Of a stretch of DNA of 38,900 bases, positions 193 through 650 are shown piece after piece. A program made the position numbers and the translations under genes. Source of the DNA: Deltaproteobacteria bacterium (lineage in GTDB: Bacteria; Desulfobacterota; WTBG01; CAIYCZ01; CAIRTM01); contig VGSH01000017.1 of the NCBI GenBank assembly GCA_016875025.1, forward strand, positions 1-38,900, read 5' to 3'. Within the stretch, counting starts at the first letter, position 1. Every line of letters begins with the position of its first letter. The notes below the pieces were generated by a model. The model did no database searches. It saw only the letters and a program-made list of their open reading frames with translations, and was not told where the DNA came from.

Positions 193-226
193 TGGCTCCC
201 CAGTGCAAACTCGACTCCACCCAGAC
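193..226 (-). pseudogene. Partial tRNA-Asn 3' end (att-like remnant)
   Basis: On the minus strand this stretch ends in GCACTGGGGAGCCA, identical over 14 bases to the acceptor stem and CCA end of the complete tRNA-Asn at 575-650. Similarity continues into the T-arm (TCGAG is shared) with a few substitutions and small gaps. The 5' half of a tRNA cannot be folded from the neighbouring bases, so it is not a working tRNA. A displaced tRNA 3' end beyond an inserted gene is the usual footprint of integration into a tRNA gene. It could also be a decayed duplicate tRNA. Confidence 0.6.
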
Positions 227-265
227 GGACTGGCTGCCTCCGGCGGAAACAGCCATCATAAGCGG

Positions 266-538
266 TCATATCCCCAGCTTCTCTTTTCGCCATTCACGCC
301 CCTTGCCGGATTTCAAAAACTTCTCCCGTCGAATCGCTATTGTTTTCGATTCATATTTCTCAACGTGCAGCAACTCCCATATACCGCTGTCGGGCCCCGT
401 ATATTTTTGCCGAGAACCCGAATGCCTGTTGTGTTCTTTTAACCTGCGCTGCAGATCAGAAGTTTGACCGGTGTAAAGTTGATCAGCATTACTGTTTCGG
501 AGAATATAAACGTAATGAGTCTCTGCAGCCCCTCCGTA
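266..538 (-). CDS. GIY-YIG nuclease-like protein (UPF0213/YhbQ type), start unclear
   Basis: This is a small single-domain GIY-YIG protein of the type often found as a lone ORF in bacteria. The conserved core is visible: YVYILRN opens the domain, LYTGQTSDLQRRLKEHN supplies the second half of the GIY-YIG signature and the conserved Arg, and REKFLKSGKGREW is the typical C-terminal motif. The usual length is about 85-100 residues. No ATG, GTG or TTG lies in frame between the tRNA terminator hairpin and YVYIL. The only upstream in-frame start is a GTG at 599-601 inside tRNA-Asn, which is implausible. I give the reading frame from just after the terminator. A GGAGG at about 530-534 could be a ribosome site left behind by a lost start codon, so the gene may be decayed. 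It sits between a full tRNA-Asn and a tRNA-Asn 3' fragment. Confidence 0.65.
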   Translation of the reverse strand, partial: YGGAAETHYVYILRNSNADQLYTGQTSDLQRRLKEHNRHSGSRQKYTGPDSGIWELLHVEKYESKTIAIRREKFLKSGKGREWRKEKLGI

Positions 539-570
539 AAAAAGCCCGATTCCTTGCGGAATCGGGCTTT
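538..570 (-). terminator. Rho-independent terminator of tRNA-Asn
   Basis: On the minus strand, GCCCGATTCC pairs perfectly with GGAATCGGGC around a four-base loop and is followed by six T. It begins a few bases after the CCA end of tRNA-Asn and precedes the GIY-YIG frame. Confidence 0.85.
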
Positions 571-574
571 TAAT

Positions 575-650
575 TGGCTCCCCAGTGCGGACTCGAACCA
601 CAGACCCGGTGGTTAACAGCCACCTGCTCTACCGACTGAGCTACTGGGGA
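575..650 (-). tRNA. tRNA-Asn (anticodon GTT)
   Basis: A 76-base cloverleaf folds on the minus strand. The acceptor stem TCCCCAG pairs with CTGGGGA, the D-arm GCTC...GAGC is present, the anticodon stem GGTGG/CCACC holds the loop CTGTTAA with anticodon GTT, and the T-arm contains TTCGAGT. A discriminator G and an encoded CCA end the gene. A terminator follows directly. The region 651-963 beyond its 5' end has no convincing gene. Confidence 0.95.

Follow-up and report, generated by a model that had tools for sequence, protein, structure and literature searches.

The window analysed here, a 38,900-nt stretch of a Deltaproteobacteria bacterium contig (VGSH01000017.1), carries near its start a compact locus with all parts on the minus strand, in the order tRNA-Asn, terminator, GIY-YIG nuclease frame, partial tRNA-Asn copy, and second terminator (Table 1). 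All elements of this arrangement are present as described in the initial annotation, which gave no strand. The tRNA-Asn(GTT) gene is the only tRNA gene that ARAGORN finds in the window, and it is uninterrupted. Rfam reports no group I intron in positions 1–2400 or in 12 related loci; with the tRNA complete and no group I match at hand, we rejected a group I intron in the anticodon loop.

Table 1 Features at the window locus.
Feature	Position	Strand	Evidence	Remark
Complete tRNA-Asn (GTT)	575..650	minus	ARAGORN; Rfam RF00005, 63.8 bits	Presumed target and host gene
Terminator 1, 3′ of tRNA	540..571	minus	Self-complementary match, inverted repeat and T-run	
GIY-YIG nuclease frame	266..532	minus	Pfam PF01541, E 4.4e-15	88 residues, single domain
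Degenerate right-hand tRNA-Asn copy	193..254	minus	Alignment to own tRNA; hairpin fold	
Piece of right-hand copy: GGCTGTT	248-254	minus		
Piece of right-hand copy: small palindrome	239-247	minus		
Piece of right-hand copy: T-loop to CCA end	193-214	minus		
Terminator 2, 3′ of tRNA copy	151..183	minus	Fold; inverted repeat 158-183	
Multicopy group II intron, 5′ end	1..149	minus	Rfam RF02001 over 1-68	Cut by contig end

Over nucleotides 55–76, the fragment shares 20 of 22 bases with the tRNA of the window itself. Its alignment score of 34 is reached by none of 2000 shuffles (all shuffled controls in this work are single-base shuffles) and compares with 24 and 21 for the best matches elsewhere in the rest of the window, which rules out a chance match of the 14 identical bases first noticed. 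These bases are not the sole similarity either: the fragment also holds the GGCTGTT motif and a short palindrome. The tRNA and first terminator match an unoccupied site in genome G010 at 94.7% over 114 bp; the native tRNA unit is thus intact, with the nuclease frame and the copy lying beyond it. Terminator 2 is supported by its setting, in that five further copies of the sequence that follows it also lie after terminator-like hairpins. Direct repeats of the tRNA end flank the insert, as they do in integrative islands at tRNA genes; between the tRNA and its copy the GIY-YIG frame is the sole recognized gene, and the unit holds no integrase gene. Upstream, the reading frame stays open into the tRNA-Asn, and no ATG, GTG, or TTG codon lies between terminator 1 and the GIY-YIG domain. 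Because a usual start codon is missing, this nuclease copy may be worn, and the window locus is perhaps a worn copy of a GIY-YIG unit.

Group IIC introns habitually insert right after terminators. The group II intron beside the unit matches RF02001 over window positions 68–1 with 41.2 bits (gathering score 32), and its 5′ sequence matches 11 places in the genome, in six cases without a difference across the 149 bases. Six copies, including that of the window, start directly 3′ of a terminator-like hairpin and T-run. The intron is a separate mobile element inserted after terminator 2, and its multicopy sequence, which begins at window position 149, explains why the contig ends there; contigs also stop 149 bp into the intron at L340-L347.

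Among related genomes, 51 of 58 give a DNA match to the window, mostly to the tRNA-Asn gene, and a relative of the GIY-YIG protein is present in six of the nine genomes of the family, the window's own included. The nuclease gene adjoins tRNA-Asn in G005 and G006, together with tandem tRNA pieces. In G005 these are three 119-bp repeats upstream; in G006 the tRNA 3′ part is repeated downstream (62 bp) and the 5′ part upstream (84 bp). Complete tRNA-Asn genes with no adjoining GIY-YIG match occur in G001, G003, G004, and G007 of the family and in G010 of the same order, G001 being read on the downstream side only since its contigs break in the tRNA. Empty sites of the kind that the initial annotation proposed to look for therefore exist, and the arrangement differs among relatives instead of being common to all. 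G003 keeps a lone tRNA-Asn 3′ fragment.

Across the phylum, 114 of 118 genomes contain PF01541 matches (E up to 1e-7). From the matches listed with frames shorter than 200 aa, we read 107 small-frame loci (82 and 25), the better-scoring ones and not a random draw, leaving out G006:C178 (179 aa) and G006:C19 (53 aa). Within this better-scoring set, 28 of 107 genes have a complete tRNA or tmRNA on the same strand within 600 bp, compared with 0 of 23 uvrC genes; the other 79 have neither within 600 bp, which means that only some GIY-YIG branches are tied to tRNA. The neighbors are tRNA-Asn, Asp, Ala, Lys, Ser, and Leu and tmRNA, with Pro added by a later search. The same order, which the initial annotation proposed to look for, is found at other tRNAs, and the GIY-YIG branches follow tRNA identity. 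Partial copies of the neighboring tRNA beyond shuffled controls occur at Asp, Ala, Asn, and Ser loci; some Arg, His, and Lys rows reflect mere resemblance between neighboring intact tRNAs and are not copies. Two matches (G115:C1:702297-702500 and G055:C3:27484-27699) lie inside long frames of 1239 and 855 aa that are not uvrC-sized.

The association holds when loci are collected by protein alone. Patterns from seven Asn-type proteins (set A3) retrieved 70 loci in named genomes, the window protein as sole query having found nothing in a first scan of named genomes. Their titles name Desulfobacterota/Deltaproteobacteria, Nitrospirota, Acidobacteria, Hydrogenedentota, Zixibacteria, Verrucomicrobia/PVC, Fermentibacteria, Bacteroidota, and Pseudomonadota; no tRNA-Asn was found at the Bacteroidota and Pseudomonadota loci. 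A complete tRNA-Asn lies on the same strand at 49 of the 70 loci and on the opposite strand at none. Forty-six such genes are upstream of the GIY-YIG gene, 38 of them 11–60 bp from the match, and the tRNA is present in 41 of 49 loci with at least 600 bp of upstream sequence and in 8 of 21 with less. Partial tRNA-Asn copies accompany the gene on the same strand in 40 of 49 loci and on the opposite strand in two of 49. At least one locus belongs to a named strain, Desulfoferrobacter suflitae DRH4 (L225), which makes the system testable.

Each GIY-YIG branch keeps to one tRNA. With 395 genomes searched per query, an Ala-type protein matched 53 genomes and a tmRNA-type protein 28; near relatives of the former lie at tRNA-Ala and further ones at Asp or Asn, and members of the latter lie mainly at tmRNA, besides two next to tRNA-Pro and two next to tRNA-Ser. 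A tree of 201 proteins, built from few columns and with many open forks, requires 10 changes of the target label among its 90 labeled rows (eight labels, minimum seven) and 35 changes for all groups together, versus a shuffled mean of 81.3. Occurrence of the unit is patchy, and the tree weakly suggests that horizontal transfer between phyla may have taken place. Clear tmRNA copies were not convincingly found at the 20 tmRNA-linked rows: 16 score no higher than the best of 30 shuffles and four exceed it by 1–4 points, two of these four being one contig. In this branch, also present in the window's own genome, the nuclease gene lies about 100–470 bp downstream of tmRNA on the same strand (L004 (G000:C2), L068, L079, L120, L158, L169, L175, and L290-L305).

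The partial tRNA-Asn copies have a distinctive architecture, in which nucleotides 25–34 are replaced by a covarying hairpin of 15–18 nt that disables the copy. Across 45 Asn loci, tRNA flanks are joined to palindromes at 96 places; the junction is exactly at nucleotides 24|35 in 53 of these 96, and the opposite strand has no such place. When inserts are defined by the flanks alone (GGYAGAG ... TTAAYCA), 125 places are found, of which 55 have the normal 10 nt and 70 another length, always 15–18 nt. A stem of at least 5 bp is present in 64 of these 70, and the remaining six resemble point-mutated versions. The 47 distinct inserts share a nearly constant outer TCCCG/CGGGA, and their inner pairs covary through several pair types: pair 6 is formed in 45 of 47 inserts (shuffles, mean 29.8, maximum 38) and pair 7 in 36 of 43 (mean 23.3, maximum 30). 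Within a locus, the left and right hairpins resemble each other (0.92, versus 0.74 between loci). A second class of copies joins the anticodon loop to the T loop. In Asp and Ala copies the whole anticodon arm is replaced (27/28|45/46 and 26|44), as seen in two rows per tRNA, with both Ala rows coming from a single contig.

Left and right copies differ in what they retain. Left copies keep the tRNA 5′ part, with 27 of 43 beginning at nucleotide 1 and 42 of 43 ending at 40–52; right copies keep the 3′ part and begin at nucleotides 5–18 in 24 of 24 cases. The insertion into a tRNA 3′ end that was proposed for the window thus holds roughly, with the correction that related copies break in the anticodon or T arm and that copies of the 5′ part occur on the left as well. 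Right-hand copies match the host's own tRNA, 23 of 23 scoring above the median of other loci, a median lowered by five of these 23 rows (L195, L200, L207, L213, and L214) because their tRNA has no CCA end or is out of register. Some contigs were read twice (for example L085/L221, L070/L243, and L121/L271, and among tmRNA rows L004/L301, L158/L303, L120/L305, L169/L290, and L175/L309), so the copy, junction, and tmRNA counts are somewhat inflated. The nuclease frame stops inside the right copy or a downstream tRNA in 32 of 58 loci, at TAA in 26 of the 32. It runs into a complete tRNA-Asn in L106 and L143 and into a complete tRNA-Ser in L163, three loci where a protein frame overlaps a tRNA on the same strand and its stop codon falls in the anticodon loop or D loop.

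Several loci are further elaborated. Tandem tRNA-Asn 5′ pieces with hairpins lie upstream of the intact tRNA in L035, L036, L048, L201, L238, and L242, and G006 contigs break off within these arrays. Dispersed tRNA-Asn 3′ ends, each followed by a similar terminator, occur at a distance from any complete tRNA (L039 (G008:C2) at 720-800 and 1950-2020, L038, and L041). Two GIY-YIG genes stand in tandem at one tRNA in L225, L098, and L093, consistent with segmental duplication. A run of N, from masking or an assembly gap, lies inside an apparent upstream second GIY-YIG copy in L104.

Taken together, these observations suggest that tRNA genes harbor a type of selfish element that has attracted little attention. 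The loci are probably free-standing, tRNA-specific, SegB-like selfish units of bacterial chromosomes, of which the window would hold a worn member. The family proteins are predicted from sequence to be minimal GIY-YIG nucleases of about 85 residues and of UPF0213/Slx1-like type, and we infer the tRNA to be their target from its position alone. The nuclease would cut in or near a tRNA gene, and repair by recombination with an occupied locus would insert the nuclease gene and duplicate tRNA sequence, with phage SegB, which cuts tRNA genes and drives tandem amplification of tRNA-Tyr and segB, as the precedent. One intact tRNA copy would keep the host alive; the extra copies, disabled by replacement of the anticodon arm, may serve as homology arms or cut-proof sites. 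The initial annotation had named a homing-type agent and the last remnant of a larger island as the two readings, and the former, with its putative cleavage and homing, is the better one because the order recurs at tRNA-Asn and at other tRNAs, branches track the tRNA, and relatives with empty sites exist. Against it, the intact neighboring tRNA should still be a target, which the homing model does not reconcile with self-protection, and the single short domain offers no DNA-binding module that would account for tRNA preference. The hairpin at one fixed position, for which SegB offers no parallel, the missing start codon of the window copy, the 79 small GIY-YIG genes with no tRNA or tmRNA nearby, the tmRNA-linked members with no clear copies, and the weak signal of horizontal spread also weigh against this reading.

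Copies of a tRNA 3′ end around an insert are the classic mark of integrase-driven islands, and such copies do flank the insert here. We nevertheless regard a remnant of an ordinary island in the tRNA-Asn 3′ end as highly improbable and set it aside as largely refuted, since the short unit has no integrase, recurs with the same nuclease branch in 49 of the 70 loci under many phylum names, and carries copies that break in the anticodon or T arm and include 5′ parts. In-place tandem duplication by ordinary recombination, with the GIY-YIG gene as a passenger and copies decaying through genome-wide palindromic repeats, would account for the match of copies to the host's own tRNA and for the terminators after intact tRNA and right copy, which by eye are alike in L209, L092, L106, and L225. 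TCCCG..CGGGA palindromes are moreover common in G005 (133 versus 28 in the control) and G006 (200 versus 20), that is, enriched in two of the four genomes examined, so that a simple spread of dispersed palindromic repeats is partly possible as the origin of the hairpins. We consider this account unlikely, given that branches follow tRNA identity, that the same 10-nt segment is exchanged for the hairpin in loci of many phylum names, that palindromes are not enriched in G000 (60 versus 52) or G053 (1 versus 8), and that by eye the dispersed palindromes of G006 and G000 have no tRNA flanks.

Another possible, if doubtful, reading makes the unit a new mobile element whose cassette enters the tRNA anticodon arm via the hairpin-marked core, an Slx1-like GIY-YIG protein replacing the integrase. 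The cassette would consist of intact tRNA, terminator, and GIY-YIG gene and so supply a whole spare tRNA; the left copy (nucleotides 1–24, hairpin, 35 to about 46) would be attL and the right copy (about 10–24, hairpin, 35–76) attR, and a circle carrying tRNA nucleotides ~10–46 with the hairpin core would recombine with the host tRNA. A crossover in the anticodon arm is one geometry that would yield the left/right asymmetry. A structure-specific nuclease would here act on the hairpin, as a cruciform, in the integrase's stead, which is conceivable because, among solved structures, UPF0213 proteins and the structure-specific nuclease SLX1 come closest in sequence. The placement of nuclease and intact tRNA between two disabled copies would also fit a natural cleave-and-rescue drive, in which the nuclease would eliminate the tRNA gene of the resident allele and a functional spare would arrive with the cassette, but this spare still carries the would-be target segment, and we rate such a drive as quite unlikely. 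If instead the nuclease were a host gene and the marked copies functional RNAs, acting as processing or regulatory signals for its mRNA, hairpin covariation and the frames ending inside right copies or tRNAs would follow; the patchy distribution, left copies with no tRNA 3′ half, and tandem arrays of variable number speak against this proposal and make it very unlikely.

A SegB-like chromosomal counterpart of GIY-YIG homing, if true, would account for pseudo-tRNAs and for tandem arrays of tRNAs. Part of the annotated tRNA-like repeats, and part of the contig breaks, would then stem from such loci, which would also be a source of enzymes aimed at tRNA genes. Among the open-access papers that our searches listed, none described GIY-YIG genes of chromosomes linked to tRNA genes, or tRNA copies marked by a hairpin; the claim of novelty is provisional, since subscription papers and preprints lay outside the search.

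Most known cases of free-standing GIY-YIG homing come from phages and organelles. The window protein matches homing endonuclease families of PHROG only weakly (3.8e-4 and 0.0041). We rejected a phage origin: IMG/VR holds no relative by the two patterns used, and the relatives in 16 of 50,697 phage records and four of 72,556 plasmid records are distant, all below 60% identity. In REP/RAYT systems, palindromes are mobilized by a Y1 (HuH) transposase. Integrative elements at tRNA 3′ ends duplicate the tRNA end and leave the tRNA intact, as do the loci here, which differ in having no integrase and no cargo and in breakpoints that lie mostly in the anticodon arm. Standalone UPF0213/prokaryotic Slx1-like proteins provide the closest solved sequences (PDB 1zg2, 1ywl; SLX1 4xlg) and share the minimal domain; the accessible text on them (PMC1564403) mentions tRNA three times, never linking GIY-YIG to tRNA genes. 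Mobile endonuclease ORFs of fungal mitochondria (Glomus atp6, atp9, cox2, and nad3; Allomyces atp6), as portrayed in the accessible portions of PMC3630166, similarly follow a gene with a duplicated 3′ part and have the displaced native end downstream. There the gene end is foreign and the hosts are protein genes, whereas copies here match the host tRNA; those portions make no mention of hairpin-marked copies.

The closest parallel is SegB, a free-standing GIY-YIG homing endonuclease of phages T4 and T6 (PMC13096335; PMC2988022), as far as the available sections of these papers describe it. SegB cleaves inside tRNA genes, tandem amplification of tRNA-Tyr and segB depends on its nuclease activity, and in the resulting repeats the segB 3′ end is joined to the tRNA 5′ end by microhomology (PMC13096335). 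Like segB, the genes studied here encode a GIY-YIG domain, lie outside group I introns in the window and the 12 related loci scanned, stand beside a presumed target, and are absent from that site in some relatives; they also reside among tRNA genes, and many loci show a junction of nuclease 3′ end and tRNA 5′ end. By our own reading, the SegB motif RAWTSGAAC is the complement of a conserved tRNA T-loop sequence. The position-fixed hairpin of the disabled tRNA copies has no counterpart in the SegB system as described in those sections. Unlike SegB, the present loci are chromosomal, their protein is a single domain, and each branch keeps to its one tRNA.
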